The position numbers were made by a program, and so were the translations under genes. The notes under the pieces were generated by a model. That model made no database searches and was not told where the DNA came from. It saw only the letters and a program-made list of their open reading frames with translations. Positions 2,557-51,866 of a DNA stretch of 64,000 bases are shown piece after piece (position 1 is the stretch's first letter; each line of letters begins with the position of its first letter). This DNA is from Pyropia yezoensis (Eukaryota; Rhodophyta; Bangiophyceae; Bangiales; Bangiaceae): the NCBI GenBank assembly GCA_009829735.1, contig CM020618.1, positions 37,424,894-37,488,893 of the forward strand, read 5' to 3'.

Positions 2557-4567
2557 GTGCAGTTTGCAATCCGGGAGATAAAGGGGCAAGGCTGGGTAGA
2601 GGCCGAGGATGCGACGTGGGTAAGACTGGTGGGCAGCAACGGGGTCGGTCCACCAGGGTGGAGGCGTCGAAAGCGACAGAGACAAATCGTGCGCGAGACC
2701 AAAGAGGTCGTGAGTTCCCGCTTGGAGCGGAGGCTGCTCTGCGCGCGTAGGCTCCGAAGCAATCTCGTGGGGTCTGTCAGATCAATTCCAGCATCACAAC
2801 GACGCTACAACTATGGACAGAAAAGCAAGTGTTCAAGGAGTATAATTCCGGATGATGTGGGGGTGACGAGTGCAGCCAATTGCAGCACTGGGTGGGGCTC
2901 GAAATATGTGCGCCTGTCATCGACGAAATTTTCTGCAGCTGAAAATTAGTCAAAGGATACAGTGACCATGAGTCGTTGCGAGCGCCACACAAGTGTAAGT
3001 CATCACGAGATACGTGGGGCAGGCTTGAAGACGGCCTGACCACCCTATTTTCTGCTCTCGCCGTCGCTTTCGTTGTGTTCGTGGCACCAGCAACGTCGGG
3101 TCTTGGATGGACGAAAAAGTGCATCACAGGGCCCCAGGTCACAGCGCCCGCCCCCACGCATTGGCTGAAGCGTGGGCGCTCGTCCCCCCTCTTGGCACCC
3201 GGTTGGGCCGTGTCCACCCAATGGGAGAGCGACCTTGCGAAAGGGCGTGGCGGAGAGTGGCGGCGGCGAACCCGAATTCCCTGTGGCGCCGCGAAGTCGC
3301 GTAAACGTTCTGCCGGAGCCCACGATGGTGGTGGGCGGGTGGGGTGGGACAAATATGAGATGTGGGGCTCCAGAGGCTGCTGATCGAGCCGCCGCAGGAG
3401 TCGCCCACCCCAGCCATACCCCCCCATCCCACCTCACCGAAGTGGAGCCCCCTTGCGTGACCGCGGACCAATGCCATTCCTTCATCGTCTGATGGTTTTG
3501 TTTTCGCTGTTGGGACCGAAAACCTCGCACCGCTCCTGCGTCTGCTCAGAGGCGACAAGGAGGGGGGATGGGCGCTGCCTCGCTGGCTGCGATGGGATGG
3601 CGGCCCCGAGGCACCGAGATGCGAACATGCGAATCCGCTCCCCCCCGCCGCTCCAGGTGCGCGCCCTGCCCAGTTCGCTGCAGGTCGGCGGCTGACGGTG
3701 GGGCGCACAAGCCCGGTCAGGCCGGAGGTGCCCAACGAGGCAACGCGCATGCGGTGGTGGTTGGGTGGGTGGGGAGAACACGACCAGCCAAGGAAACAAA
3801 AAAAAAGTGGAGAGAGAAAAATAGAAACGATGGACATCTCACGCACTGTCGGGCGCGGCCAAGCCCCCTCCCCCCTGTCTCAAGCCACCCTGCAGCTGCT
3901 TTGCTGGACGCGAGCCCCCGCAATCGGTCATTGTTTTGCGGCAGCACCCCCCAGCAGACGCAGGCGTTGGCCAGTCCCCGAATTGGCAGCCCCCGGCGTC
4001 ACCCCCCCCCCCCCACCCATCACCAGCGCTCGAGGCAGTCGCGCTCCCACTCACCCCCCCAGCCATCCCACCCAAGCGCCTGCACCGTGGCCTCTCGCCC
4101 CTCGTCGGCCGCAGCTCCCGCTCCGCCCCACGCGTGCCGTGTGCCGCATCCTCACCGCTAGTGCCCACCGCTTGTCCACGCGTGCGCCTCCGTGCCGTCG
4201 GTGTGCCTTGGCGTCGGCGTTGAGAGCGACGGCCGGCCGGTCGGGTGGGTCTGCCGCTGGCAGAAGCGGCCCCACGCGCCATAGCTCGGGCGTGACCGCT
4301 GTTCCCGCCTTTCCCCCTCTTCCCCTCTGGCCAGAGCGTGGACCGCTCACCTTCCCCACCGCCATTACCCCTCCTCTGCTGCTGCAGTCAATTTGTATCG
4401 TATCGCCGTTCTACCGTGACCTCCGCTCCCCTTCACGTCACTCCCTGTCCCCATTCTCCGCACGCGCCCTCCTCTCTACTCTCTTCCCCCACGACGCGCC
4501 CCGTCTCTCGCCGTACCACGCTTTCTTGTTTTGCCGCGCTCCGTGCGTTACCACTCGGCCGCCGTGG
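2557..4567. other. Intergenic, divergent promoter region
   Basis: 2 kb between the starts of two divergent genes. The part at 2770-2960 is lower in GC than its surroundings. From 3950 onward the + strand is C-rich and pyrimidine-rich, which could be the 5' leader of the downstream gene, whose frame is open back to 3698 without convincing protein. I see no separate gene. Confidence 0.45.
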
Positions 4568-7500
4568 ATGGAGGCGGGGGAGAGGTGCGCCCCAACGGCA
4601 CCCATGGCACCCCCTCCTGTCGGTGCTGCCGTCGGCGCTCTTGGGTCTGTCAGCGCTGGTGGTGGCGGTGGGGGAGGTGGAGTTGGTGGAGTTGGTGGCA
4701 GTGGTGGCGGTGGTGGCGGCAATGGCAGCTGCAGCGGCAGTGGGGAGGGTGGCCGCGGCGGCGCGGCGGCGCTCCGTCGCTCCTCCCGCACCCGCCGAGC
4801 GGCGCCCAGGGCCCCGTCGCCACCCATCCCCCCCCCCCGCGAGTCCGATGTGAGTGATGATGGCGGGTATGTTGGCGGTAGCGGTGGCGGTGGTGGCGAC
4901 GGCAGCGGCATTGGCGTGGCCTCCGCCGGCATGGTAGGTGGTCTGGCGTCTACTCCCCCCTCTCGGTTCGGCGGCGGTGGCTCATCGGCATCCCCGTCCC
5001 TGCGGTCCGCTCCGTCGCCGACGACACCCGGCGCGGGCGACGCTGGTGCCGACGGAGAGACCGAGGCAGACCTCTTTTTTCCACCCCCCTCCGCGCTGGG
5101 GGCGATGTACGACCCGGTGGCGTTTGGGATTGAGGAGCCTGCAGTGGGGGTGGAGGGGGAGGGGGGTGGCCTCGGGCTCCTCGACATGCCTAATGTGCTG
5201 TTCCACCCTGGCCCGGCCGACGCGGCCGCGGCGATAGGGGGCGCAGGGGGGGCTTCTCCTGGGGGGATGGGCGTCGATGGCGGGCCCGCCGGTGGCCGAC
5301 GGCCAGCAGTCGGGGCGGCGGCCGCGAGTGGCGGCGGGGCAGGGCGCGACCGCCACGACCGTGACCGGCGGCGCCATGGAGGGTCTGCTGCAGGTGCGGC
5401 GGCCGCGACGGGCGGCGCCCGACTCCCCGGTGCGGGTACCGCCAAACCGGTCACTGTCACAGGCGCCGGCGAAGGCGATGACCCAACCTCGCCCGCGACC
5501 CCCGCCGGCAAGTCGCGCCCCCGGGCGCGCCCCCGCGGCCGCGCGCGCCTGTCAGCTCTCCCCCCCGGCAGCCGCGCGTGCGGTGTGTGCGAAGAGCGCC
5601 ATGACGGCACGTATGGGAATGGGCGGTACTGCAGTTCGCGGTGCTCCAAGCGGGTTGGCGCCATCACGGCGTGGCAACGACGGCGGGACGCGGACCTTGC
5701 CGCCGCATCTGCATCGGGGGAGGGCGGAGGGACGGGGGGGGGGCGCAGCGGCGCAGGGGGTCCAGGGTCCAACCCGGGGCCTGACCGCAAGCGCGCGCGC
5801 GTGGGCGCCAAGGCCGCTTCGGCGTCGGCGCGGGGGGCCGGCGTGGCGCTGCCTGGGGGTGGGGGTTCCACCGCCGCCGGGGGAGGAATTGGAGGACAAT
5901 CTGGACCAGCGCCTGCTCCCACCGCCACTGCCGCCGCTCCTGCTACCACCGGACCGGTACGTGCGCCCCCAGCCGGAGGGAGTGGTGGTGTGGGCCCCCG
6001 GCTGCCGCCACCGCCGCCCCCGCCACCGCCGCCCCCGCCACCGCCACGGTCAGCAGTGGGGGCAGGAGGGACGCCTGTCCGTCGCGACACAGCTGCTGCT
6101 CGCGTTGCCGCCTCCCGTATATTGGCGGCAGGTGCAGGTGGCGGTGGGGCGGATGGCAAACGTGCGGGAGGGGGGCGAGCCCCGGCGGGTGGTCGGCTAC
6201 TGTCTGGTACGGGGGCACCGGGGGCGCCGGTGCCGCCACAACTGGCAACAGGGAGAGGGGTGGGAGGAGGGGCACGGGGTGGGGCCGGCGGTCGGCCAGG
6301 ACCTCCTGGATCGGCTGTTGGTGCTGGCAGTAACACTGGTAGCAGCGTTCGCGGTGGCAGTAGTGGCTGTGGCGTTGGCGGTGGTGGTGGCATTGGCGGT
6401 GGCGGTGGCGTTGGCGGTGGCGGTGGCGGAAGCAGCGGCGGTAGCGGTGGTGGTGGCGGCAGCGGTAGCGGTGGCGGTGGTAGTATAGTTGTTGGCCGTA
6501 CCGCAACCCCTCCTGCTGGCGCAATTTCCCGCGTTGGTGCAGCCGTCCTCAATGCTGCGGGTCTATCCAGTCCTGGCACTGGCGCTGGGGCGGCGGTAGA
6601 GATGGCACTCTCCCTTGGGGGACTCCCCCCCTCGGACCGTACCCTTGCCGGGGAGCGGTTGCAGCTGAGCGCCCGCCGCGGTGTCTGGCGCGATGCGGTC
6701 ATTGTTGACTATCTCCCGCCATCGCGCACCCACGTGGTGCGATACATGGACGATGGACGGCTGGGGAATGTGCGGCTGGACGCGCGGCGGTTCCGGTTTG
6801 TTTTTGACCCCGCGGGAGAAGGGCGCGCTGAGCGAGGCGAGGCGCCCGCAACGGTGGCTGCTGCAGTGGCAGCCGCGGCCACCGCGACGGCCGATCGAGG
6901 GCCTGCAGTCAGCGGCGCGTCGTCCCCTCTTTCTGACTCGACAATCGCTGGCGGAGGTGGAGGCCGTGGGGTTTCCGCTTCCACTGCCGGCGCTGCCGCC
7001 GTGGCTGCAGGGCCTAGAGCGGGTACTCCTCGCACGATCGGCAGCCGGCCTGCTTCCAGCCGCCCCGGAGCGTCTCCGGCGGGCGGCCGCCCAATTGGGC
7101 GGCCGACAGCGCCACCACGAGCACCGCCTGCCAGCGGTGGCGGTCGAGCTGGCGGTGCCGGCCGCTCTGCTGGTCGCACCACTCACCCTCCGCGTGGCTC
7201 TGGCGGACGAGTGCCCCCCATTCGGGGCGCTGCTGCCGGTCGCGTTGCTGCCGGTCGCCCCCCCTCCCCCGCGTTTCCCGTCAAGACCGAGGTGATGCCC
7301 GTTGGCGTCTTTGGCCCACGTCACGTGGACTCGGCGCTCCCGTTTGGCGCGCCCATGGGTATCAAGGGGGGCGCGATGCCGTTGTCATCGCCACCACACG
7401 GTTCCATTCCAGGGTCCCTGCCGGGGGACCCAATGGTTGGCGACGCCGCGTCGGTGGCTGCTGACGCAGCTGCCACGGCTGCCGCTGTGGACGCTTGCGG

Positions 7501-12540: not shown

Positions 12541-15500
12541 CTACGCCCCTAAGCGTGCCATCCGAACCGTTCCGTCCCGGCAGCCAACAGCGACGCGGTC
12601 AGCATCGATCACGCAAAGCGAGGCAACACGAAGAGAGCACGCCACAGGACACGACCGCGGACCAGAGCTCAAGTCCACAAAAAAAACCGCTCCACTCCAG
12701 CAAATGGCAAACAGTCGCCCAGAGTGGTCGTCTACTACTTCAAACCGACAAGCAACACTCGGTAAATGGACAAGAGCAACAGCCTCAGGCGCATACGCAG
12801 GACCAGCGACAACATCCCAAACCCGCAGCGTCTTGTCGTACGACCCAGACACGACTCGCTGCACAGCCGCCCCGCCTCCATCCTCGCCACCATCCCCGAC
12901 CACGTCCACAACACAAACGCACGTCACCCAACCCTCGTGACCCTCGAGCACCCGCACGCACTCGCCGCTGTCCACATCCCACACCCGCAGCGTCTTGTCG
13001 TACGACCCAGACACGACTCGCTGCACAGCCGCCCCGCCTCCATCCCCGCCACCCCCGACCACGTCCACAACACACACGCACACCACCGAACGCTCGTGAC
13101 CCTCGAGCACCCGCACGCACTCGCCGCTGTCCACATCCCACACCCGCAGCATCTTGTCGTGCGACCCAGACACGACTCGCCGCACAGCCGCCCCGCCTCC
13201 ATGCCCGCCACCATCCCTGCCCACGTCCACAACACACACGCACCCCACCAAATCTTCGTGACCCTCGAGCACCCGCATGCACTCGCCGCTGTCCACATCC
13301 CACACCCGCAGCATCTTGTCGTGCGACCCAGACACGACTCGCCGCACAGCCGCCCCGCCTCCATGCCCGCCACCATCCCTGCCCACGTCCACAACACACA
13401 CGCACCCCACCAAATCTTCGTGACCCTCGAGCACCCGCACGCACTCGCCGCTGTCCACGTCCCACACCCGCAGCGTCTTGTCGCGGGACCCAGACACGAC
13501 TCGCTGCACAGCCATCCCTCCTACATGCCCGCCACCAACCCCACCCACGTCCACTACACACACGCACTTCACCAAATCTCCGTGACCCTCAAGCACCCGC
13601 ACACACTCGCTGCTGTCCATATCCCACACCCGCAGTGAACTGTCGTACGACCCAGACACGACTCGCTGCACAGCTGCTCCGCCTCCACCCCCGCCACCAC
13701 CCCCGCAACCATCGGTGCCCACGTCCAGGATACACAAGCACACCACGAGGTATTCGTGACCCGCACGCACCCACACGCACTCACCGCTGTCCACATCCCA
13801 CACCCGCAGCGTGCAGTCGTCGGATCCAGCCACAACTCGCTGCACAGCTGCCCCGCCTCCGTGCCCGCCACCATTCCCGACACTGTCCACGGCACACACA
13901 CACGTCACCCAACCCTCGTGACCCTCGAGCACCCGCACGCACTCGCCGCTGTCCACATCCCACACCCGCAGCGTCTTGTCGCCCGACCCAGACACGACTC
14001 GCTGCACAGCCACCCCGCCTCCGTGCCCGCCACCATTCCCGACACTGTCCACGGCACAAACGCACGTCACCCAACCCTCGTGACCCTCGAGCACCCGCAC
14101 GCACTCGCCGCTGTCCACATCCCACACCCGCAGCGTCTTGTCGTACGACCCAGACACGACTCGCTGCACAGCCGCCCCGCCTCCATCCTCGCCACCCCCG
14201 ACCACGTCCACAACACACACGCACGTCACCCAACCCTCGTGACCCTCGAGCACCCGCACGCACTCGCCGCTGTCCACATCCCACACCCGCAGCGTCTTGT
14301 CCCACGACCCAGACACGACTCGCCGCACAGCCGCCCCGCCTCCATCCTCGCCACCCCCGACCACGTCCACAACACACACGCACACCACCGAACGCTCGTG
14401 ACCCTCGAGCACCCGCACGCACTCGCCGCTGTCCACATCCCACACCCGCAGCATCTTGTCGTGCGACCCAGACACGACTCGCCGCACAGCCGCCCCGCCT
14501 CCATGCCCGCCACCATCCCTGCCCACGTCCACAACACACACGGACCCCACCAAATCTTCGTGACCCTCGAGCACCCGCATGCACTCGCCGCTGTCCACAT
14601 CCCACACCCGCAGCGTACAGTCGAAGGACCCTGACACCAGGAGAGTACGGCCGTCGGCGCTCTGCAGTTTGCAGCTGCATGTCACGCTGCTGCGATGACC
14701 AATTAGAAAGGCTAGTTCTTGTGGAAGAGGCAAAGGCTCAGGCCAAAGCAGTCGCAGCGTCATAGAGTCCTGGGAGGTGCGGGCAGCATCTACCAGCCGG
14801 CGCAAACGTGCGCGGGCAACTGTGGTATCAGGCGAGATCGACGGCAAACGCGCGGCGAGATCAAACGCTACCACCTGCGCAGGTGGATATCCCAAAGCGT
14901 CCGCCGCCGCCAGGGCCCCATCCACGACGGCAGCCACGCGCATCGCTAGCGGCATTCCAGACACCCGGCAGTCGGCCCGGTAGCCCACCGTCGCGTTGCC
15001 GTGGCGGACGACGCGCCAGGCAATCCAGTTCCATTCAAGCAGCAGGGACAAAAGCTCCTCCCGCAGGCGAGGGCCTCCTGCGTGAAGGTGGCGACAAAGT
15101 GCATGCTCCATGTAGCCGTCGCTGTTGGCGGGTAGATTCCACCACGGACGGCAACGGATGGCGTACCCCTCGCCGATGACGGGTTGCTGCTCAATCCCCA
15201 AGCGGGACCCGTAGTTGTTGACCAGCGCTGCATGGTGAATCTGCCTGTCCACAGTCTGCGGCACCAGCCTACCACGGACCCAGTCAACAATGAGGTCGTG
15301 CAGGCCGACCACTACGGTTCGAGCTTCTTCCCTCACCGTTGCCAGCGAGTGGCGAGCGATGATACGCAAGTGGCGCGCAGCGACTCCGACCTCCATCCCC
15401 CATAAAGCCGCCAGCGCGGGCAGAGGCAGCCACTCTTGTTTGTCGACAACACAGAGAGCCTTGTAGAGGCGCGCGTACAGGTCGTCCTCCGCACCATCGA

Positions 15501-17586
15501 CACACAACTGGCCGTAGCTGGCCATGAAGCAAGCCCAGAGAGAGCCCCCGGGGTGGAACTGCTCCAAGGATAGCGCCTCGTCTAGCTGATTCGCCGCGTT
15601 TGCCCACCCATCGGCACGCACCAACGAGCCCAGCACCGCCAAGGCCAGCGGCAGCCCTGCGGCAGCCTGGACAAGCTCGGCCAGCGCGTGCTTCTCGCTC
15701 TCATGGCTGGGCTTCTGCCGAGACCCGTAATGAAGTGCGTAAGCCAGCAGCATATCCGTCGCGCAATGCTGCTGCACCGTCCCGACGCTCACAATACAAC
15801 CAGGAGTGGAGTGACGGGCAATGAGATCCAAGCGAGTGGTGAAAATCAGGCAGCTGCGGCGACACCGGCCCACGGCGCTTACAAAGTGTCGCGCCAGCTC
15901 ATCATCCCAGCAGTCGTCCACGAAAAGAACGACGCTCTTGTCCGCCAAGGCGTCCCGCAGCCGGGCAGCAGCCGTGTCAATGGACGGCGCCAGGGTCACC
16001 TGCTGTTGCGTTAAGCAGGTAGCTACCGCTGCCATGTACTTGGTGGCCAGCTCACGGGTCGCTCCCTGCCCAAGGCTCACCCAGTACACGCCGTCAGGGT
16101 AGCGATCGCCCTCGGCGGCCACGCGCGCCGCCACGAGTTGTGCCACCGTTGTCTTGCCGACGCCCCCCATGCCGTACGTGCTGACAACACGCACACACGT
16201 CCCCGCAGCCGACGGCGCCGGATCACCCAGCACCACCTGCAAAAGCCGACACCATGGCCGGTCGGCATGGGCATCATCCCAATGGGCAACAACAGGTCCC
16301 GAAACGGGGGGAACAGCCAGCCACTCTTTCGCGTCGGTCAAAGCCCGCGATTGGTTGTCACGTTCCGCACCCTCCGCCTGTTCTTTGATTTCGGTGGTCA
16401 GTTTCATGTTTTCCATGGCCAGGTTCACATTGACGTTCAGCCGCAGCTCTGCAACCGCCGCCTTGCACGCCGTCATCTCCTTAACAAGCGCAAGCACCTC
16501 GTCCTTGCCCCGCACAGACGCCGCTTGCCGCAGGCGGGCGCCCCGCGACAGGGAGAGGCGAAACAGCTTCCCAGTGACGGCATCCAGAGTACCAGCCACC
16601 ACACCCACCTCAGCCAGAAGAGCCGCCGCGTTGGCCGACTCTACCTCTCGGAGCCTGGCGACAGCTGGAAACAGGTGGGAGCGCAACGTGTCCAGCAGAC
16701 ACCCACACTCGATCCGCAGGTCCTCGGCAATGCCCCCCATGGCTACCGCTTCGGTACAGACGCGCAAGGCCATCGACAGCGTCCCGACAATAAAAGCCAC
16801 ACAGGGTCCCGCCGACGAGACCGCATCAAAAGCGCCGCCACACAGGACGGCCGTGGTGATCCCAGCCACCGCCGCGGGGACGCCTGTAGCAAAGAAAACG
16901 TCAACCGCGTCAGCAAGCGCCCGCACACCCCCAACCCGTGGCCGCGCAGAAGGCCCCCCAACGCTGCCCTCCCCTTCTCCGCCTCCTACAAGCACCCGCT
17001 GCCATACCAATGACAGAGGTGCCGTGCGCAGCATGATCTGGCGCGACCACTCGTCCGCCACCGCCTGCGTCTCGGCTACAAAGTCAACACGGACACTGGA
17101 CGACCCCTTGTCCACAGACACCACGCTGATCACCCACTCCGCCTGCGCGTGGGTGCCCGGCAACCCGCTCCCACCGTGCTCCACCCGCACATCAAAGGAC
17201 CGCGTCCCATCGGGCTTGTCACGGGGTAGCGGGAAAAAGTGCCAGCCCCGCTGGGCGCCACCTTCCGTCGGCAGCGGGTGTCCCGGCAGCGGCTCCGAGT
17301 CGTCGTCGGCCGCCTCCCGATAGAAGAGCCCACAATGGAGCCACACGTCGACAGCTGCGTGCGGCTTCGCGCCATGGCGCAGCAACCGTTTGGCGCCGCT
17401 CAAGACCTTGGGCGCGCGGCTGGGGGTGGCGGCGAGCTGAAGGCGCCCCGCAAACGGCAGCAGCATCGCCCGCCACCCTTGCTTGTCACCGTCGTCTGGG
17501 AGGCCATAGACCCGCCGCCCCGCCGGGAGCGCACTCGGCTGTCCACCGACGGTGGCACGTGACCGAAAGGGGGAATGCCGGCGCAT
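12541..17586 (-). CDS. NLR-like STAND receptor: PH-like, helical/hydrophobic, NB-ARC, WD40 repeats
   Basis: 1681 residues, one uninterrupted exon. Residues ~35-190 resemble a PH domain, ending in an AVADEWSRQI helix. Residues ~220-275 are hydrophobic and Gly/Ala-rich; ~275-400 are helical, similar in pattern to MLKL/HeLo/RPW8-type bundles (my comparison, not proven). The NB-ARC core has the P-loop GMGGVGKTT (472-480), Walker B VVLFVDDCW (552-560), FTTR (582-585), GLPLAL (644-649) and LHDLIVDW (762-769) in the MHD position. From ~960 to ~1590 there are at least 12 WD40 blades of ~53 residues, nearly identical to each other, then a degenerate closing part. Known STAND proteins of this plan use the repeats as sensor, the NTPase as switch and the N-terminus as effector. 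A receptor for non-self or damage is inferred. ATG 17586 is the first Met of the frame. Confidence 0.85.
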   Translation of the reverse strand: MRRHSPFRSRATVGGQPSALPAGRRVYGLPDDGDKQGWRAMLLPFAGRLQLAATPSRAPKVLSGAKRLLRHGAKPHAAVDVWLHCGLFYREAADDDSEPLPGHPLPTEGGAQRGWHFFPLPRDKPDGTRSFDVRVEHGGSGLPGTHAQAEWVISVVSVDKGSSSVRVDFVAETQAVADEWSRQIMLRTAPLSLVWQRVLVGGGEGEGSVGGPSARPRVGGVRALADAVDVFFATGVPAAVAGITTAVLCGGAFDAVSSAGPCVAFIVGTLSMALRVCTEAVAMGGIAEDLRIECGCLLDTLRSHLFPAVARLREVESANAAALLAEVGVVAGTLDAVTGKLFRLSLSRGARLRQAASVRGKDEVLALVKEMTACKAAVAELRLNVNVNLAMENMKLTTEIKEQAEGAERDNQSRALTDAKEWLAVPPVSGPVVAHWDDAHADRPWCRLLQVVLGDPAPSAAGTCVRVVSTYGMGGVGKTTVAQLVAARVAAEGDRYPDGVYWVSLGQGATRELATKYMAAVATCLTQQQVTLAPSIDTAAARLRDALADKSVVLFVDDCWDDELARHFVSAVGRCRRSCLIFTTRLDLIARHSTPGCIVSVGTVQQHCATDMLLAYALHYGSRQKPSHESEKHALAELVQAAAGLPLALAVLGSLVRADGWANAANQLDEALSLEQFHPGGSLWACFMASYGQLCVDGAEDDLYARLYKALCVVDKQEWLPLPALAALWGMEVGVAARHLRIIARHSLATVREEARTVVVGLHDLIVDWVRGRLVPQTVDRQIHHAALVNNYGSRLGIEQQPVIGEGYAIRCRPWWNLPANSDGYMEHALCRHLHAGGPRLREELLSLLLEWNWIAWRVVRHGNATVGYRADCRVSGMPLAMRVAAVVDGALAAADALGYPPAQVVAFDLAARLPSISPDTTVARARLRRLVDAARTSQDSMTLRLLWPEPLPLPQELAFLIGHRSSVTCSCKLQSADGRTLLVSGSFDCTLRVWDVDSGECMRVLEGHEDLVGSVCVVDVGRDGGGHGGGAAVRRVVSGSHDKMLRVWDVDSGECVRVLEGHERSVVCVCVVDVVGGGEDGGGAAVRRVVSGSWDKTLRVWDVDSGECVRVLEGHEGWVTCVCVVDVVGGGEDGGGAAVQRVVSGSYDKTLRVWDVDSGECVRVLEGHEGWVTCVCAVDSVGNGGGHGGGVAVQRVVSGSGDKTLRVWDVDSGECVRVLEGHEGWVTCVCAVDSVGNGGGHGGGAAVQRVVAGSDDCTLRVWDVDSGECVWVRAGHEYLVVCLCILDVGTDGCGGGGGGGGGAAVQRVVSGSYDSSLRVWDMDSSECVRVLEGHGDLVKCVCVVDVGGVGGGHVGGMAVQRVVSGSRDKTLRVWDVDSGECVRVLEGHEDLVGCVCVVDVGRDGGGHGGGAAVRRVVSGSHDKMLRVWDVDSGECMRVLEGHEDLVGCVCVVDVGRDGGGHGGGAAVRRVVSGSHDKMLRVWDVDSGECVRVLEGHERSVVCVCVVDVVGGGGDGGGAAVQRVVSGSYDKTLRVWDVDSGECVRVLEGHEGWVTCVCVVDVVGDGGEDGGGAAVQRVVSGSYDKTLRVWDVVAGPAYAPEAVALVHLPSVACRFEVVDDHSGRLFAICWSGAVFFVDLSSGPRSCPVACSLRVASLCVIDADRVAVGCRDGTVRMARLGA
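12816..14640 (-). repeat. Array of ~12 near-identical WD40-coding units
   Basis: Tandem units of about 156-170 bp, each coding a blade of the form VVSGSxDxxLRVWDVDSGEC, then RVLEGHExxVxCVCVVD and a Gly-rich linker. Neighbouring units, for example those at 13140-13290 and 13290-13450, are almost identical in DNA. Differences cluster at the residue before D in SGSxD, the next two after D, and the two or three after GHE. One unit (about 13620-13800) is more divergent and longer. The order DL/G, RS/V, GW/T occurs in two places, suggesting duplication of a multi-blade block. Confidence 0.9.
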
Positions 17587-35444: not shown

Positions 35445-35912
35445 GGGGCTTCCTTGCCTGGCGCGTGCTGGACGTCTATTCTGTTATCTTGGAAGATATG
35501 GCCTGCTGTCTCTGAGAGCGTTCCTCTTAACGATTCATTTGCTTCTCAAGTGGCCGTGTGCTCGTTACTGTCTTCCCTGACCTCGCCCGGTGTCTCTTCT
35601 TGTTCCTCTGGTCCAGGCGGTTGTCTGCTTGATCCCTGACGTACTTGACGAGATTGGCATTCCTGCGGAGAGAACGCCGATTGGTTAGTAAATACGTCTC
35701 TTCGTACGTGTCCTTACATGGAGGCGCAGTTGGGCAACAACGGTCTGTGCATCCCGCGCGGGCGATGCTCTCGCGTGGCGTCGCTTCGGTTAAGCCTTCT
35801 CCGCGGCAGGTGCTGCACGGCTGGGTGCCCGTTCGCAACCCACAGATCCGCCTCGCGCTTCCTGCGCACGCGGTAGGCACACCTTCCTGTGCTGCTCCCT
35901 CAAACGTTTACC
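35445..35912. other. Intergenic / possible 5' exon of the ankyrin gene
   Basis: 0.47 kb between two + strand genes. A possible intron runs from a GTAGGC donor at about 35873 to a pyrimidine-rich acceptor ending CACGCAG at 35946. If it is used, the ankyrin protein would start in an upstream exon within this stretch. Otherwise I see no feature. Confidence 0.4.
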
Positions 35913-38018
35913 ATGATGCCTTTCTCGTTGCTGTCTTCCACGCAGGTCGCCTCCGAGTTTTACCGAGCGTGCCGCACGGCCGACACCGCCCGGGTGGTGG
36001 ACCTGCTTAAGATGACCGCTACCAACTTGCGGACGGCGCCCTTGGGCGTCAACGGGGACACTGCTCTTCATGTGGCGGTGGACCACAACCGGGTATCCAT
36101 CACCAAAGTCCTTCTCGAAGCCGGTGCGGCGGTAGACACTCCTCGCCCAGACGGATTTACGCCGCTGTGCGTAGCGGTGTCGGGTGGCCACGTCAGTGCC
36201 GCTCGGCTGTTGGTCCAGTTTAAGGCCAATGTCAACGCAGAGACGAGATGCGGTGAAACACCACTACGGTTAGCTGCGGCGGCTGGTGACGAGCGGTCGG
36301 TGGGACTACTCCTTGAAGGCGGTGCGGAGATTGAAGCGGCGGACCCGCAAGGGTACACTGCATTGCTGATCGCGGCCATCAAGGAGAACCGCCGAGTCGA
36401 AGAGCTCCTGGTCACCCGTCTCGCAAACGTCAATGCTGTCCGTTGTGATGGTTGGACGGCGCTTCACCTAGAGGCGTACGCAGGGCATTTGACCATGTGC
36501 CGGTCTTTACTTCGTGCCGGTGCGACCGTTGATGCTTGCGCCGATGGTGGGTGGACGCCCCTTATTATTGCCGCTTCCGAGGGACATGTTGCAGTTGTGT
36601 GGGACCTCATCCAGCACCACGCGAACGTCAATGCTATGCGACATGGGGGTTTCACCAGCCTATATATGGCTGCGGAAGTGGGTGCGAAAGACGTGGTCGA
36701 TGCGCTGCTGGCATCTGACGCGGCTGTTGATGGTGCTATCGATGATGGTTCGACGCCGCTCTCCATTGCAGCCCACAATGGCCACGTCGATATCGTCCGG
36801 GCGCTCCTCGACGCGGGTGCTGCGCCGGGGAGGTGCCGGCGCGACGGGTGGACGCCGCTGATGCTAGCGGCGCTCCTCGACCACGGCCCCGCCGCCAAGG
36901 CTCTTGTGGACTCTGGCAAGGCGGCTCTGTGCCAGCGGCTACCGCTCACTGGCTCCCGTCACTCTGTTCACACGGCCCTGCATGTGGCAGCCGAACACAA
37001 CTCTGATGCCGTGCTGCGGGTATTGCTAGATGCGAAAATGCCTGCCGACGGAGGTGTCGACGACGTCCGCGATGGTAAGACTCCGCTCATGCTTTCTGCC
37101 GCTGAGGGCAACACTGCCGCCGTAAAGTGGCTGCTCGAAGCCGGCGCGAACGTGCACGCATCGGCGGATGGCATCGACGGCAGTGTGGCGCGGGTCACGG
37201 CGCTGAGCGAGGCGGCCGCTGAGGGCCACGAACTCACGGTTTCCGTGCTGTTGCAAGCGGCAGGCGGTGCGTCGGTGCCTCTTTCGATGTTACGTGACGC
37301 TCATCGTGCCGCTCGCGCGAAAGGGCACATCGAGTTGGCGGGGCAGCTGCAAAGTGGGTCGCTATTGTTGCCGCTCAAGGACAACCTATACCTCAGGCGT
37401 GAGGTGCGCGGCGGGGAGGGTGGACGGCGCGGGGAGTCCTCGCTGCCCGCGCCTAAACGCCGGCGGTCTGAGGGTGCGCTCTTTGTCGCGAGGAGGGGAG
37501 GTCTGGCGCCGGCGAGCAGGCGTCCACTGGGAAACCCTGTACCTCTGGAGGCGGCTGTGATGGCTGCGAGGACGGCGGCTGTGACGACTGCGGCATCGGC
37601 GGGCATGCGCGGGTCAGGGTCGTCAGCCCGGGCGGCGGCCCGGGCATCGCCGAGAGCGTCGCGTCCGCCTTCTCTTGTTCCTGTCGAGGTCAAGCCGTTT
37701 GTGGAGCCCCTTGCGTTGCCGCCCGTCTCCCCCGCTGCTGTAGTCCCAATCGTATCCCCCACGGCGACTGCTGCTCAAGTCGCCGCCGCGTTTGTAGCAT
37801 ATGTGGGGACTGGCTTCACTGCCGGGCAGGCAGCGGACCTTGCCGCCGCCGTCATTCCCGTCGCAGTAGCCCAGGACTTGACTGGGGCGGTCGCAACCCA
37901 GGAGGACCCAGCCGAGATGGTGACATTGCTACTCGCCAATTATAAGGAAGGGACTATGCCCTGGGGGGCTGTCCGCCGGGGGCGCCGATTTTTCGCGGCT
38001 CTGCAAGAGCAGACGTAG
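35913..38018 (+). CDS. Ankyrin-repeat protein
   Basis: 701 residues from ATG 35913. Residues ~45-480 form about 12 ankyrin repeats with the usual core (GDTALHVAVDHNRVSITKVLLEAG; DGWTPLMLAALLDHGPAAKALVD; DGKTPLMLSAAEGNTAAVKWLLEAG). Ankyrin repeats bind partner proteins, and no enzymatic domain follows. The C-terminal ~200 residues are Ala/Pro/Arg-rich, with a basic patch PAPKRRRSEG that could be a nuclear signal and a final helical part. The start is uncertain: an upstream donor and a good acceptor flank this ATG, so the real N-terminus may come from an earlier exon joined at VASEFYRACR. The partner and pathway are unknown. Confidence 0.85.
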   Translation: MMPFSLLSSTQVASEFYRACRTADTARVVDLLKMTATNLRTAPLGVNGDTALHVAVDHNRVSITKVLLEAGAAVDTPRPDGFTPLCVAVSGGHVSAARLLVQFKANVNAETRCGETPLRLAAAAGDERSVGLLLEGGAEIEAADPQGYTALLIAAIKENRRVEELLVTRLANVNAVRCDGWTALHLEAYAGHLTMCRSLLRAGATVDACADGGWTPLIIAASEGHVAVVWDLIQHHANVNAMRHGGFTSLYMAAEVGAKDVVDALLASDAAVDGAIDDGSTPLSIAAHNGHVDIVRALLDAGAAPGRCRRDGWTPLMLAALLDHGPAAKALVDSGKAALCQRLPLTGSRHSVHTALHVAAEHNSDAVLRVLLDAKMPADGGVDDVRDGKTPLMLSAAEGNTAAVKWLLEAGANVHASADGIDGSVARVTALSEAAAEGHELTVSVLLQAAGGASVPLSMLRDAHRAARAKGHIELAGQLQSGSLLLPLKDNLYLRREVRGGEGGRRGESSLPAPKRRRSEGALFVARRGGLAPASRRPLGNPVPLEAAVMAARTAAVTTAASAGMRGSGSSARAAARASPRASRPPSLVPVEVKPFVEPLALPPVSPAAVVPIVSPTATAAQVAAAFVAYVGTGFTAGQAADLAAAVIPVAVAQDLTGAVATQEDPAEMVTLLLANYKEGTMPWGAVRRGRRFFAALQEQT

Positions 38019-44117: not shown

Positions 44118-46958
44118 CTACAAGAAGTTCTCCTCGCGATACGCGAATCTTACGTTGCTGCCGTAGGAGTCGGTGTAGCGGGTCTTGCCACTGCGCTGGT
44201 AGGCGTTACGTGCCAGCTTCCATGACTTGCCTCGCCCCGACTCTAGGTCCGCATCTCCCTCCCCCGATCCGTCGAGACCAATCGCGCCTCGCCGATAGCC
44301 GCGCGCCAGGCTCAACGCCGTCGCCCGAGCAATACCGTCTTGGATGCTCTTGGACATTGGGTGTGGGCCACAAAAGAATACACCAACCACAGACCCAGAC
44401 CGGGAGCGCTCGGTGATGCCCGCAAAGATAGCCGCCCAGTCAGGGCGCTTGTAGGTAGTCTTGAGGGGCACCTCGTCGTAGTCAAGCATCCACGGCTCCA
44501 CCTCCGCGGCTGACCGGGTAATGTGGCGGTGCAGCCGGACGGTGCCCGACCGAGAGATGGGCAGCAGCTCCTCAACCAACCAAGCGTCGTGCTCTGGTGA
44601 CGGGGACGTCCACACGAAGTCGAGACTCCGGAGGCTGTGAGAGGACTGCAAATTCTGCGCTAGCACCAGGCGAGAGCCCACTACCCGGGTGAGCCGGAAG
44701 AGCAACGCGAACAGAAGTAGTGGCCACAGCACCAGCAGGTTGACACTCGCAAACCACGCCGCGCTACGGCCGTGACCGGCCAGCGCGAGGGCGTCCGTAA
44801 TCACGCCCGCCAGCAGCAACGGCAGCAAGAAGAGGGTGTCGACAAGGGAGCCCCGTTGGCGAAAGTAGACGGACACCCCCAAGATGGATGCTTCACAGCC
44901 GAGGGACACCGCCAGCGGTACTGCGCAGGCGCTGGCGAGTACCAGGTCCGCCACGACGAGTCCACGGGTGTTGAACATAGCAAGCCCCGCCGTGGACGGG
45001 GAAAAGCCACGCATGATGGACGCCAGGGCGACAATCGCAAAGCGCGCCACCATAGCCCACAACAGAGCCAGGCTCACCGACACTGAGTGCAAGATTTGCA
45101 GCACAGCCACCCGCTTTGTCCGAGCGCGCACAACCTCAGAGGGAAGCGTGCCGCGGCGGTCGTCGCCGCCCTTGAGGCCGCCGAAGAAAGCGCCCAGCAC
45201 CGACGTGCGGCGGTTGGCGCCTTCTTTAGCCGCCGCACGCTGCTTGACGACATCTGCATCGGCATCAAGGGCGAGTCCAATCAGCTGCTGCCCAGCTGTC
45301 GAGTTGATGAAGGCCGAGTGGCGCAGCACGCGGCCAATGGACTGTTGGCTCTGCAATTGGTCCTCCTCCTCCTCGTCCAGTCGGCTGCTGTCATCGTCAT
45401 CAGACAACGCGCCGTCCTCGCCGTCCATGTCCACGGCGTGCCCGGTCATGTCTTGCTCCACCACACTTTGCACGCTCGATGGCGGGGGGAAAACGCGGTC
45501 GTTGTCCTCCTTGTCTGCGATGGAGTAAAGACGGTCCAGCTCGGCAACGCGGCGCTCGAGAACATCACTGGTGAAGCTCGAGGGCGCCTGCGGCGGCCTC
45601 AGAGCCGCATCGTCCGACAACCTCGCAGCGGGGATACGTGACCCGTTTGACGAGAGATCCTCGTCCATGTCAGCAAGCGAGTCGACGGTGGGCATGCGCG
45701 CCTGCGCCGTGACCGTCGCCGCCGACGTGCTGTGCTGCATAGTGAGGCGGGCAGACAATGATGCCGACGCCGGTACAGTCGTTGCGTCCCGTGCCGTCGC
45801 CGCCGGCACTGATACCTGCCCCGCGGCGGCATTGAACGACGACGACGGGGACATTTCCGGCCCGCGCGTTGACGAGGCCGCCATCCAGTTGTGGGCCGAC
45901 TTAACCACCGACGCGAAGGGTGTTGAGCCGACGCCGCCCCCAATGAGCACCACGTTTTCAAACTGCCCGACGTGTTGCGCAGGGCTGCCATACGGGCCTC
46001 GCACCTTGATTTCCACCTGCGTAGGGTCAGTGGAGGCGAACATGGCATGAAGATTGGTTGTCCAGTCGCCACTCTTCTTGATGTAGAACACCAGCTCCGG
46101 CTCGTGCGGCGCGGACGCAATGGTAAACGGGTGCCATTGAACAGAGGAGATGGCCGGCACTTTGACCTCCGCGTACTGCCCGGGTTCATAGGTGAAGGAG
46201 CGAGGAAGCCGGAGGCAGAGCATAGAGTTGCCCTTGATGGCACCCACGTCACGGGACACCTCCATCCGCACCTCTTTCTGCTCCACCCGACGCATGAGTC
46301 GGTCAATGATGTAGACCGCCATAGGCCCTGCCGCCCATCGATAGGTCCAGTACACCCCATAATGTAGCCCGTGGATCATCAGCAAGACAAAGCCGAGGCT
46401 CGCACAGATGGCGTGCGAATACCAGAACAGCTCGTAGCGCTTCGAGCGGTTGACCCGCACGGAAGTGACAAAGAGGATGGCGAAGAGAGCCACCAGCATG
46501 CTGCCCGTGATGAAGAGCTGGGTAAACCCATTGTAGCCCGGGCCCCACGGCTTTGACACCACGTACACGGGAAGGTGGAAGCCGACATGGACGACCGACG
46601 CGGCGAGGAAGACACGGCCTACCAGCATATGAAAGGCCGGCATCGCCTTGTCAAACGGCACGACCATATTCAGAGGGGTGTTGCGGAGCCAAGACATGAA
46701 CTTGCGGGCCGACACAAGCAAAATGACCGCACTGTTGAAGTTGATCAGGTTGCCAGCACCCCGCGCGACGGGGGTCAGGTTGCGGCGGTAGTGGCCGACC
46801 GGCCATAGCCGCCGCTCAGGCGTCGCTGCGAAGAAGAAGAGGATGACATTCGCGAGAATGTACAGGCCAAGAAAGGTGAGCACAAAGCCGTTGGTGGAGA
46901 GGTAGCTCTCTACCCGCGACACCCGGCTCTTGGGCGGCGGCGGCTTATCGTCTCCCAT
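44118..46958 (-). CDS. NADPH oxidase / respiratory burst oxidase (NOX/RBOH), red-algal architecture
   Basis: 946 residues, one exon. An N-terminal ferric-reductase membrane domain has the two haem His pairs with NOX spacing: H110 and H124, H182 and H195. The FAD motif HPFTIASAP is at 276-284; NAD(P) loop IGGGVGSTPFAS is near 339-350. The C-terminal part has FFCGPHPMSKS and ends VRFAYREENFL, close to the conserved Phe end of NOX. It should move electrons from cytosolic NADPH across a membrane to O2, giving superoxide. Between the two NAD(P) lobes is an insert of ~400 residues: an acidic, Ser-rich part (DMDEDLSS, EEEEDQLQSQQ) and several hydrophobic segments that add about four or more membrane helices. 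No EF-hands are visible, so Ca2+ control as in plants is not supported. ATG 46958 starts MGDDKPPPP; the open extension to 47228 looks non-coding. Confidence 0.93.
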   Translation of the reverse strand: MGDDKPPPPKSRVSRVESYLSTNGFVLTFLGLYILANVILFFFAATPERRLWPVGHYRRNLTPVARGAGNLINFNSAVILLVSARKFMSWLRNTPLNMVVPFDKAMPAFHMLVGRVFLAASVVHVGFHLPVYVVSKPWGPGYNGFTQLFITGSMLVALFAILFVTSVRVNRSKRYELFWYSHAICASLGFVLLMIHGLHYGVYWTYRWAAGPMAVYIIDRLMRRVEQKEVRMEVSRDVGAIKGNSMLCLRLPRSFTYEPGQYAEVKVPAISSVQWHPFTIASAPHEPELVFYIKKSGDWTTNLHAMFASTDPTQVEIKVRGPYGSPAQHVGQFENVVLIGGGVGSTPFASVVKSAHNWMAASSTRGPEMSPSSSFNAAAGQVSVPAATARDATTVPASASLSARLTMQHSTSAATVTAQARMPTVDSLADMDEDLSSNGSRIPAARLSDDAALRPPQAPSSFTSDVLERRVAELDRLYSIADKEDNDRVFPPPSSVQSVVEQDMTGHAVDMDGEDGALSDDDDSSRLDEEEEDQLQSQQSIGRVLRHSAFINSTAGQQLIGLALDADADVVKQRAAAKEGANRRTSVLGAFFGGLKGGDDRRGTLPSEVVRARTKRVAVLQILHSVSVSLALLWAMVARFAIVALASIMRGFSPSTAGLAMFNTRGLVVADLVLASACAVPLAVSLGCEASILGVSVYFRQRGSLVDTLFLLPLLLAGVITDALALAGHGRSAAWFASVNLLVLWPLLLFALLFRLTRVVGSRLVLAQNLQSSHSLRSLDFVWTSPSPEHDAWLVEELLPISRSGTVRLHRHITRSAAEVEPWMLDYDEVPLKTTYKRPDWAAIFAGITERSRSGSVVGVFFCGPHPMSKSIQDGIARATALSLARGYRRGAIGLDGSGEGDADLESGRGKSWKLARNAYQRSGKTRYTDSYGSNVRFAYREENFL

Positions 46959-49281
46959 GGTCGCGACGGCCGCCAACGTGGATACAACGCACACACCAGG
47001 GGGTGACACCCGGGGACGTCGGGGAGCGCCTGACAACCACGGGTGCCACCTCTCGGCACGGTCCCAGGCTGCACACAAGGCGACAGCAGCCGCACACCGC
47101 TCTTCCAAAGGCGAGGGAGGGTAGCGAGGGTAGTAGGGAGTGGTTTTGGGAGCCGACGACGGCAATGCCTGGTCTAGAAGTGAGGACCAGACGGCTACTG
47201 CGAAACAGCGCTCCCACACCCGAGGCATCGGTCTTCAACTCCCCCGTCCCCCCACTGCTGGGACGAGCCCCCGCCCTCGCCAGCAGCCCCCCAACGCAAT
47301 CACCCCGGGCAGTAGGGGAGCCGCACCCGCCGCGCACGACCCTCCCCACCAGTGAGAATCCTGCCCGCAACCCCGGCCGCCGGTACCACCGCGGGCCAGC
47401 GTCAAATGAGGGGGGTCCCGCCCGAGCTGACGCGTCGCCCCACCCCCGCTGGGTGGCGGCCGACGCGCTGGGCACGGCACGGCACGGCACGGCACGGCAT
47501 CCCGCCGGCGCCCCACCACGACAACACCCAAAGCGAATGCGCCGCCATCCCCCTCGCCTCACAAAAAAGGGTGGCAGGGGTGGTCGCAACGGCAGAGCCA
47601 TCATCGCCTCCCCTCAACTCTCTCACAAGCTGTCCAGTAGGTCCCGTGAGCAGCACTCCCTCCCTCCCCCCCATCCCCAGCCCCACGCGCCTCGTCGGCC
47701 GCCACGACCCAGGCTGCAGAGTGGACGCCGCCGTCGCCGCGGCCGCCCCAACCGCCGCTGCTACTGCCGCCACTGCCTCCCTCCCTGCCAAGAAGGCGGG
47801 TCGTGGCGGCCAGCCGCCACGGCGGTCTGCCACGAGCCGCTTCCCATGCGCCCCCCCCAGTGGGGCGCATGCAGCATACATGACTGGCCAAACGAGACGG
47901 CAAGCCCCCCATCGTTCCCCATCTCCCCCCCCCGCCCCGCGTTCGGGACGCCACCATTCTGGCTACACTGAACAGGTTTCGCCCTACCGCGTGGAGGGGG
48001 TCAGCTCACGGTGGTCAAGATCAGGGCCAGGCGGGGAAAGCGCCCAAGGGAACACACCGAAACATGGCTAAGACAGGCGCGAAGGAGAAAAAAGGGGCAG
48101 GAGGGGGAGAACGGAGCAGGTGGGAGGAAGGAGGGGCGGAGGGGTGTTCTCGGCGATGATCAGATGGATGGGAAATGGCGGCAGTTGTCCGCTCCCGGTC
48201 CGGCTGTGGCCGCCTTCACGCTAGGCCACGTACAGCGCAGCCGCATCAGCGCTGCGGCCACGTGCCACGATCCGACAATCACGACACTGGCGGTGAGCGG
48301 GAGCCATCTCCACTGTAAAGTATACAGGTGAACCTGGCAAGGAGGCGCCACACAGTGGGGGCACAGAACGCACCAAAATCTACCTCGTGCTGTGTCGTGG
48401 CCGTCTTTAAAGCGATCAGAGTCAAAGATTTCACGTTTGACACGATTCGCCCTCGAGGGCTCTGGAGCGGGGAGCTCCCCGCTCCGCCTGCTGGGTCGTG
48501 GCCGCCGCTCCCAGCCGCGCGGGCAGCTGTCGCCCCACGGTAGTCGTTCTTTTGTAGCCACTGCGTGCGCGGAGTACCTCATGCCACGACCACCATGCCG
48601 GCCGATGGAGGGTGGTCCGAGAGGGGACGCGCCGCTTGTGGGCAGCGAGGGGCCCAGGGGTGACGGCGCCCGCCGCCAGTGTCCACCAGCCTCAGCCGGC
48701 GTGGCTGGCCGGCAACCACCTCACTCGCCTGCGCGCCCGGGAGCGACTAGGCCAACGCGCGGCGCCCCTGAAGGTGAGAACGAGCGGGGCGACCGTTGGG
48801 AGAGAAAATACAAAACAACAGAAAAAAAGAGGGAGGCCGCCCCACGCGCGGCGGCAGGCGCCACGGTGGAACCGCCCCCGCGGACCACCCGCGCGGACCA
48901 CCCGCGCGGCTGTGACGTCCCGCCACCCGTTCCGCCACAACCCTTTCCTCCCACGTTGACGCAGGGAGCCGCGACCGCAGCCACCCCGGCAAGACCAGCA
49001 TCTCCAGGCACCCCCCCCCTCCCCTAGGGCCCTACACGGCGGGCGCCCCCTCAGCCCCCCGCCGCACCGCGCTGCGGGTCGAGGCTGCCCTCCCCGCGCG
49101 CTGGCCGCGGCGGTCTCCGCCACCCACACGGCAGCGCAGCGCAGGCGGGACGGTCGCGGCGACAGCGGCCACCAGCAGAGGGCTGGCGACAGGGGGCCGC
49201 GCCCACGACGACCGACCGCCACGAATGCCCCTCCCCCCTCTCACGCGTACCCCACTCACGCCCCCAAGGGGACGAGGCGTC
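46959..49281. other. Intergenic upstream of the NADPH oxidase
   Basis: 2.3 kb. It contains a (GGCAC)n microsatellite at 47471-47499, C-rich stretches and a lower-GC part around 48280-48450. Open frames on both strands are Pro/Arg/Ala-rich with no domain, so I call no gene. Confidence 0.45.
47471..47499. repeat. (GGCAC)n microsatellite, 6 copies
   Basis: Five perfect ggcac units followed by ggcat, in the region upstream of the NADPH oxidase. Confidence 0.9.
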
Positions 49282-50527: not shown

Positions 50528-51866
50528 AATGGTAGCAGAAGACAGCAGGGGGGAAAGAGCGTGGTAGACAGACAGCGGGGGCTCGGTCGATGACGGTGTA
50601 GAAGACATGTAGGCAGACGTGGTTGGCGAGGCCCTCACACGGATGTGATACACTACCCTGGGAAGGGGGGGGGATGGTACTGGGTGCAGCCTACAGGTAG
50701 TGGGAATTTAAGAGCATGGAGCACTTTTCGGAAAACACAGAAATTGTATGTAAGATGTTTCTAGTTCGACCAGAAGTCACATCGCGAAGAGACGATTTAT
50801 ATATCAAGTCCTCACATGATTGTCCGAAGCCAGCCGACCCGAAGCTGGTCGCGGCGATCGCGGTGACGCTGCAGGTGGGGACTACTGAGGTGAGCCCGTT
50901 TGATGTCCCGAAGCGACTGTCTCTGCAGATGACGACGCCGCTGCCGGTGCGCCCAGCGCGCTGCGATGGTGGCGGCTGACAATATCGTGCCAGTAGCGTG
51001 TCTTCCATCCCCGCGTACACACTTAGCATAGGCCCTTTATTTTGGTGGCGGAGGGCATCCTGGCCCCGCTGCCACGCGCATTCGCTCCTCCACACCCCTT
51101 CCTTTGCTCCATCGCTGCGGCGGTAGCCATGGGCCCGTGTCCTCCAGCGACGGTAGCTGTCAGGGTTGCCTGGCGACTCTATGCCTGGAGTGGTCAAGCG
51201 AGGGGCTGCGTCTGCCTAACGACGAGCGCTGTGCAGCTGCTATGGCGTGTGCCTGGCGGCTCGCTGCGGCTGCGGAGAAGGTTGGCCGCAGGTTGGGGTG
51301 CTCACGCGGGAGGGCGTGCTTGGGCTTCGGTCTGGAGCGCCGCCGTTGCAGCGCATACCGGCGCTTCGTAGCCATCTCCTAGCCTATCCTTCGTTTGAGG
51401 CCGGCTTGGCTCTGGCGACCGGGCGAGTGGGGCTCTCCGCTCTGAGGGGGACTCTGCTTGCCGCCGTTGCGGGTTGAGGGCGGTGTGGTGACCGCCTTGC
51501 GTTGTGGGACAGCACCAGGTTGACGGCGAGGGGGGTGCACTTGCGGCCGGGCTGTACCACCCATGTGGTACGCTCGAAGCGCCTGACCCTGCGTGTCGTT
51601 GTTGGCTCGGTCGACGGGGGCGGTTGGCGACAGCGGGGCGGCGGGGCAGCGCGGCAAGCCACCGCGACCGCCGTGGGTGGGCGGCCGCAGCCGTGCTATG
51701 CGGAGAACCGGTACGGGCGGTGCCTGACGACGGCCACCGCGCCGCGCCCACCAGCGGGGGACGCCCGACGTCACGCCAGGCGGCGAGTGCGGTCAGCACC
51801 GTGGTGGATTCTAGGCAGTGCGGGGGGTGGCTCGTGGTGTCCGGTCCCGTCCGTATCGGAGGCAGG
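50528..51866. other. Intergenic, divergent promoter region
   Basis: 1.3 kb between the TLS1-like gene (-) and the beta-propeller gene (+). The part at 50710-50830 is low in GC. An 87-codon frame at 50716-50979 (+), starting MEHFSENTEIVCKMF, is too short and lacks any domain, so I do not call it. Confidence 0.4.

Follow-up and report, generated by a model that had tools for sequence, protein, structure and literature searches.

Organization of the Putative Receptor Gene

The window, i.e., the whole analysed stretch of 64,000 nucleotides from Pyropia yezoensis (assembly GCA_009829735.1, contig CM020618.1, positions 37,424,894 to 37,488,893), carries a whole gene for a putative NB-ARC and WD40 receptor on its minus strand at positions 12541-17586. 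The gene was delimited with the use of the open reading frame list, the translation and Pfam. It consists of one open frame of 1681 aa, and the predicted gene model, built from this frame alone, requires no intron. The N-terminal part contains conserved region 1 (aa 24-200; 16987-17517), which was aligned across 10 family members, and conserved region 2 (aa 214-404; 16375-16947), which in the alignment is helical with a hydrophobic stretch. The NB-ARC NTPase domain (aa 466-671; 15574-16191) was recognized by Pfam with an E value of 1.7e-22 and includes the P-loop GMGGVGKTT at aa 472. The segment after the P-loop matched NB-ARC at E 2.7e-23 and NACHT at 0.016, which is under the cut-off of the latter. 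A winged-helix-like region (aa 706-769; 15280-15471) lies before the WD40 repeats; its match to APAF-1-like_WHD is sub-threshold (E 0.0042, 17.7 bits against a curated cut-off of 27). The WD40 array of 12 blades (aa 963-1592; 12811-14700) was defined by TRF, blade delimitation and Pfam, where WD40 was matched in 11 stretches. The order of an NB-ARC domain with a P-loop, followed by repeats, places the protein among the NLR/STAND proteins. No LRR was found among the 25 listed of the 32 matched Pfam families; the C-terminal repeats of the window protein are WD40, instead of the LRR found at the C-terminus of plant NB-LRR proteins.

The C-terminal 89 aa (12544-12810), viewed by eye, may hold some two cryptic blades, with which a second propeller of seven blades would be complete. 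Together with the 12 matched blades they would give 14 blades, which would correspond to two seven-bladed propellers. In the published model of HET-E of Podospora anserina there are likewise two propellers of seven blades each, and three blades at the C-terminus are cryptic (PMC12222747).

Elsewhere in the window, a ferric reductase/FAD-binding/NAD-binding protein, NADPH oxidase-like by its domain order, is coded at 44121-47228 (minus strand). An ankyrin-repeat protein of 709 aa lies at 35889-38015 (plus strand), and an SBBP beta-propeller repeat protein, with a C-terminal membrane span seen by eye, at 51504-53969 (plus strand).

Structure of the WD40 Array

TRF reported the array at 12812-14637 with a period of 162, 11.3 copies, 87% matches and a score of 2560. 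The earlier note had counted about 12 blades at 12816-14640, and twelve were indeed delimited within the single minus-strand open frame. Blades 1-4 are located at 14566-14700, 14404-14565, 14245-14403 and 14086-14244, blades 5-8 at 13924-14085, 13762-13923, 13588-13761 and 13426-13587, and blades 9-12 at 13264-13425, 13102-13263, 12943-13101 and 12811-12942. Their length is 45-58 aa, including a Gly-rich loop. The mean pairwise DNA identity is 85% across the 12 blades and 88% across blades 2-11. Blades 2, 9 and 10 are 99% identical among themselves, so the description of the blades in the earlier note as almost identical in DNA suits some pairs; it is loose for blade 1, which is just 62-72% like the others, and for blades 6, 7 and 8, with identities to the others of mostly 76-90%. 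At the protein level, the mean identity is 0.74 for the 12 blades, and the other homogenised NB-ARC arrays reach 0.82-0.91.

The array also contains a block duplication. Blades 2-4 (14086-14565) and their copy, blades 10-12 (12811-13263), both on the minus strand, align over 450 bases with 98.2% identity, a sign of the repeat shuffling suggested in the earlier note.

NB-ARC Gene Family in the Genome

The genome scan covered 107,475,971 bases in 11 contigs; another 524 contigs of the published assembly, 5.5 Mb in total, lie outside the scan (PMC7423979). NB-ARC was found by Pfam at 32 places, the window gene included. Besides the window gene, 16 places were read at 9.9 kb each and the remaining 15 in part, and the places were sorted by eye, with a Pfam domain check of the class assignment for L032, L033, L035, L036 and L037. 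Near-identical WD40 arrays follow NB-ARC in eight genes (the window gene, L009, L010, L012, L013, L014, L021, L022) and diverged WD40-type arrays in nine (L011, L015, L016, L017, L018, L019, L020, L023, L035). TPR arrays follow it in ten (L026, L027, L030, L032, L033, L034, L036, L037, L038, L041), and five showed no repeat within the stretch read (L024, L031, L039, L040, L042). The observation is therefore wider than the window gene, as it concerns a property of a gene family.

In the cluster of L009, L010 and L013, the NB-ARC DNA is 91-95% alike and the numbers of matched blades are 13, 13 and 4, respectively, i.e., blade number differs among recent paralogues. The dN/dS values in this cluster were 0.47-0.58 for the N-terminus. 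The stretch from NB-ARC to the array had 0.45-0.65 and the C-terminal cap had 0.57-0.91, which means that the NB-ARC and the cap are also fast-evolving. The best pairs of blades from distant paralogues (pairs above 60 bits) are 72-89% alike, some over just 52-90 bases; thus, recent exchange of blades was not seen except among close relatives.

All ten NB-ARC+TPR genes have repetitive arrays, with a mean repeat identity of 0.70-0.92 in repeats of 42-aa and 46-aa types. Columns of the 42-aa type with pN above pS include 6, 9, 13, 16, 20, 36 and 38, and the spacing of columns 6, 9, 13, 16 and 20 is like that of one helix face. The six most variable TPR columns, picked after the fact, gave pN/pS of 1.94 (42-aa type) and 1.60 (46-aa type).

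Five ordinary WD40 proteins (L043-L047, 0.6-1.5 kb each) served as controls, and their blades are clearly diverged, with a mean identity of 0.44-0.50 in 12-residue core segments (measured in four of the five). Of the arrays read, the repetitive ones belonged to NB-ARC genes and, in a single case, to an ankyrin protein. The genome WD40 scan scored 150 of 574 candidates and some long WD40 frames stayed unread, so further repetitive arrays may exist outside the NB-ARC family. Among plasmids, 111 records matched the WD40 region, and none of them reached 60% identity; the eight of the 111 that were listed had 26.6-30.3%, and the best of these eight was an NB-ARC protein of Acaryochloris.

Several loci deserve a separate remark. 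L025:1-2889 (C1:36370000-36375500) codes for eight similar WD40 blades between ankyrin repeats, and NB-ARC is absent in the stretch read. L017:5444-6532 and L018:3510-7715, on two chromosomes, share six blades, of which almost all have the same protein sequence; L017 holds 500 N, and the likeness reflects either a recent segmental duplication or an assembly duplicate. L022 consists of two parts (1-2850 and 3321-6566) with 16 and 5 matched blades, a frame break between them and an odd N-terminal frame, and it is possibly a pseudogene or an assembly error. The two WD40 genes at C2:2956288-2957004 and C2:2962934-2963650 have opposite orientations and the same blade scores, and they probably arose by a recent inverted duplication.

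The N-Terminal Region

The family has an N-terminus of its own, about 460 aa long, which according to the alignments is conserved among the members. In the window protein, no Pfam family exceeded its cut-off over this part, and the HET domain was not found there. The same analysis of the N-termini of 11 members gave nothing over cut-off and no family that matched more than 2 of the 11 (best E 0.015). Region 1 is possibly PH-like, as its PDB profile match was the PH domain of PLEKHB1, at a non-significant E of 0.61. A comparison by hhalign of this region with three PH domains from the same genome was not significant either (probability 1%); three of four PH loci were used, and L050 was omitted as its translated stretch is unlike a PH domain. 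For region 2, the best PDB match was a designed helical bundle, with E 0.0022 for the whole sequence but 1.8 and 1.9 when the two matching stretches are taken singly. The comparison of the window-family N-terminus with the N-termini of two TPR-type relatives was not significant, and none of 15 pattern matches in viral contigs was related to it. The N-terminus may be read by eye as a PH domain plus a HeLo-like or four-helix domain, which we regard as a lead; since the PH-like and helical-bundle matches are weak and unconvincing, membrane targeting and pore formation are guesses.

Variable Positions of the Blades

The variable residues pointed out in the earlier note were correctly described, as the blade alignment confirmed. 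The residue x of SGSxD is F, H, W, Y, G, D, Y, R, H, H, Y and Y across the 12 blades, and the pairs following the D are CT, KM, KT and SS. After GH and E, G or R, the blades have SS/T, DL/G, RS/V, GW/T, YL/V and DL/K.

In the fungal HNWD genes, four strongly selected codons (7, 9, 25 and 27), which flank conserved codons 8 and 26, were mapped to the top surface of the modelled propeller (Paoletti 2007, PMC1805685). A later numbering gives the HNWD variable positions as 10, 11, 12, 14, 30, 32 and 39 (PMC12222747). We renumbered the four codons of Paoletti by the conserved V and D that they flank, and they correspond to positions 12, 14, 30 and 32. Wu 2012 defined hotspots of the top face (R1-2, R1 and D-1) from sequence (PMC3419727), and the V-R1-R2-V rule of that work puts them at positions 12, 14 and 30 of the window blades. 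The expectation of the earlier note that the variable sites lie on one face thus agrees both with the sequence rule of Wu 2012 and with the propeller model of Paoletti 2007, from which the top face may be predicted as their location. The combinations of residues at positions 11, 12, 14, 30 and 32 were diverse, with 86 distinct ones among 111 blades; among the repeated combinations, one was common to L009 and L013 and one to both parts of L022.

Probable Selection at the Contact Codons

The selection analysis was performed by a counting method on fixed ungapped blade columns, with the four sites (12, 14, 30 and 32) set beforehand from the literature. An exact p was obtained as the rank of the nonsynonymous differences at these sites among all choices of 4 from 29 columns. 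Ten arrays with 111 blades were counted, i.e., nine arrays in eight NB-ARC genes (two of them in L022) and the array of L025. Blades that do not fit the pattern, e.g., degenerate end blades, were left out, as were L015, L017, L024 and L035. As blades are related by duplication, the counts are not independent in any of the ratios given below.

In the window array, the four fungal sites ranked at the top for nonsynonymous differences (exact p 0.00004). The ratio of pN at these sites to pS of the array was 2.43, and 0.38 for the remaining codons; it was 3.30 for blades 2-11 and 2.23-2.92 when one blade at a time was left out. Measured at the same four codons, pN/pS was 3.01. These signs of diversifying selection at the codons that are selected in fungal HNWD genes support the HNWD-type selection postulated in the earlier note. 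In all ten homogenised WD40 arrays read, the ratio of pN at the four sites to array pS was 1.70-6.90 (other codons 0.13-0.83), with exact p of 0.00004-0.0043. Six diverged arrays gave 0.81-1.46 at pS of 0.44-0.63, a low ratio of the kind that saturation would give. With the first anchoring of the blades, nine arrays pooled gave 3.6 (range 2.9-4.7) against 0.46 for other codons; two L012 blades were dropped there, some L025 and probably diverged-array blades were misplaced, and the fixed columns led to the same conclusions.

The codon-level comparison across repeat units, proposed in the earlier note as a check, had a favourable outcome against array pS in ten of ten arrays. The excess is weaker when it is measured against the pS of the same hot codons: pooled pN/pS within them was 1.5 (pN 0.414, pS 0.275), and the values per array were 0.47-9.25, above 1 in seven of the ten and below 1 in L013, L022 and L022b. 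Codon bias in the GC-rich genome may depress pS.

Comparison with Known Systems

The window gene resembles HET-D, HET-E and HET-R, the HNWD/NWD genes of Podospora anserina, in having a C-terminal array of about a dozen similar WD40 blades. The fungal and the algal family also share the change at codons flanking the conserved V and D, the similarity of repeats within a gene and the presence of several gene members. Cryptic C-terminal blades are modelled in HNWD proteins and have their counterpart in the window gene only by our reading of its C-terminus. The differences are as follows: the window gene belongs to a red alga, it has NB-ARC and not NACHT, a HET domain was not found in it, its N-terminus is the family-specific one, and its blades are longer than the 42-43 aa of HNWD blades. 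HNWD proteins also recognize alleles of HET-C, a glycolipid transfer protein, and vary in repeat number between isolates; in the alga, differences in blade number were seen among recent paralogues of one genome. The high internal conservation of WD40 repeats that characterizes HNWD proteins is present in the window array, which as a whole falls below the 85% amino acid cut-off of Dyrka 2014. The HET/HNWD-like label of the earlier note therefore holds for the pattern at the same codons and fails for membership, given the NB-ARC match (2.7e-23 against 0.016 for NACHT) and the HET search. Judged by sequence, the window protein probably works like an HNWD receptor and is not a member of that group.

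According to Dyrka 2014, high internal conservation occurs in 16% of fungal NLR repeats and 21.6% of WD repeats, while the share is just 0.4-1.2% for green plants, metazoa and the Dikarya as a whole (PMC4986451). The same source describes selection on the concave face in fungal NLRs with repetitive TPRs (PMC4986451). The NB-ARC+TPR genes of the alga are likewise repetitive with change at few codons, as in the fungal NLRs with conserved TPR/ANK repeats; unlike these, they come from another group of organisms, and their hot columns were chosen post hoc.

The domain pair itself has been published in red algae. Tang 2019 presented NB-ARC+WD40 genes of Pyropia yezoensis as candidate resistance genes, of which three were up more than 1.5-fold on Pythium infection, and suggested that the simple structure of the proteins might limit their function (PMC6928737). 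In Chondrus crispus, where such genes have likewise been published as resistance candidates, 58 of 61 NB genes carry WD40 (Andolfo 2019, PMC7145615). The published red algal genes very likely include the window family. The accessible parts of both papers contain no description of near-identical or hypervariable repeats, which are present in the window family, and no report of such repeats in red algal NB-ARC proteins was found in the titles and abstract openings of the openly licensed literature. Consequently, the novelty that the earlier note attributed to the system would apply to the repeat hypervariability and not to the presence of NB-ARC+WD40 genes in Pyropia yezoensis and Chondrus.

According to Hu 2017, highly repetitive WD40 proteins are recorded in bacteria and fungi, with none in animals or plants, and Protista are mentioned (PMC5587647). 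The window array shares with them an internal identity of at least 0.7 (mean 0.74 by our own procedure) and variable hotspots. It differs in that arrays of its type are tied to an NB-ARC family; the Protista of that survey might include red algae. Brown algal ROCO candidate receptors (PMC11378527) are another case of algal receptors built from repeats whose contact residues are under diversifying selection, but theirs are LRR motifs on shuffled separate exons with a ROCO GTPase core, whereas in Pyropia yezoensis WD40 or TPR repeats lie in open frames.

Discussion

The window gene probably codes for an intracellular non-self receptor of the NLR (STAND) type that has been diversified by repeat duplication together with selection. 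In such a receptor, NB-ARC would be the nucleotide switch, the WD40 array the sensor and the N-terminus the signalling or effector part. Unequal exchange or conversion would homogenise the repeat DNA and duplicate, delete and reorder the blades, and selection for new binding surfaces would keep altering the contact residues. By analogy to STAND receptors, a ligand, which may come from a pathogen or else be a guarded protein of the host, would bind the top face of the propeller, upon which NB-ARC may be released and the protein may oligomerise, bringing the N-termini together. The assembled N-termini could then launch a death or defence response.

An ordinary, young and highly repetitive WD40 protein with recently amplified blades and loops free of constraint would look similar without any selection for recognition. 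Proteins of this kind are known to vary at hotspots (Hu 2017, PMC5587647), contact loops are variable in any WD40 protein, and both the block duplication in the window array and the three of ten arrays below 1 against same-codon pS would fit it. Relaxed constraint, however, predicts pN equal to pS, and pN was 1.7-6.9 times array pS in ten of ten arrays. Moreover, 1677 of the 1744 differing codon pairs at hot sites change the residue, and the five ordinary WD40 controls were not repetitive; with 150 of the 574 candidates of the genome scan scored, we consider this explanation unlikely. The same codon pairs bear on the idea that mutation at the contact codons is targeted or uneven and takes the place of selection. 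Change is strictly focused on about five codons, pS is 0.275 at the four hot codons and 0.112 outside, and codons 9, 15 and 29 had a raised pS of 0.25-0.32 (first blade anchoring), all of which such mutation would produce. Path averaging over codon pairs with more than one differing base accounts for part of the hot-codon pS, and only 67 of the 1744 differing pairs are purely synonymous. Codons 13 and 31, which are constant and have hot codons on either side, show little change (pS 0.067, pN 0.020), which speaks against plain local hypermutation and leaves a mutational origin very improbable.

We give just as little credence to an array that arose by mis-assembly of similar repeats. Near-identical repeats are hard to assemble and short reads fail on them (PMC12222747), but the published Pyropia yezoensis assembly was built from PacBio long reads (PMC7423979), no stop interrupts the frame, and blade types specific to a gene are found at many loci. 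The exact blade number of the window array could nevertheless be wrong. Strict allorecognition of the HNWD type, i.e., the detection of conspecific non-self tissue, for instance on spore or thallus fusion, would agree with the similar anatomy and with the use of the same codons as in HET-D and HET-E. It is opposed by the induction of members of this gene type by Pythium infection (Tang 2019, PMC6928737), a result that applies to the gene type. Such a strict role seems rather improbable to us, and we judge a role of the non-self receptor in pathogen defence to be likelier than allorecognition. In a broader and more tentative reading, which may be true though we would not favour it, red algae have an independently evolved NB-ARC diversification of their own with recombining WD40 and TPR sensors and arrays in other scaffolds, giving strain-specific recognition sets for immunity or allorecognition in nori.

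Plants use mainly LRR sensors. Rapid diversification of NLRs by repeats has been described in fungi (PMC12222747, PMC4986451, PMC1805685). If the same design with the same codons operates in a red alga, it would be of convergent origin or very old. The diversity of the arrays questions the suggestion of Tang 2019 that structure limits the function of these proteins (PMC6928737). The Pyropia crop suffers from the oomycete Pythium (PMC6928737), and differences in the arrays among isolates could be related to their resistance. For specific recognition in a red seaweed, the window family offers a concrete candidate that can be tested.
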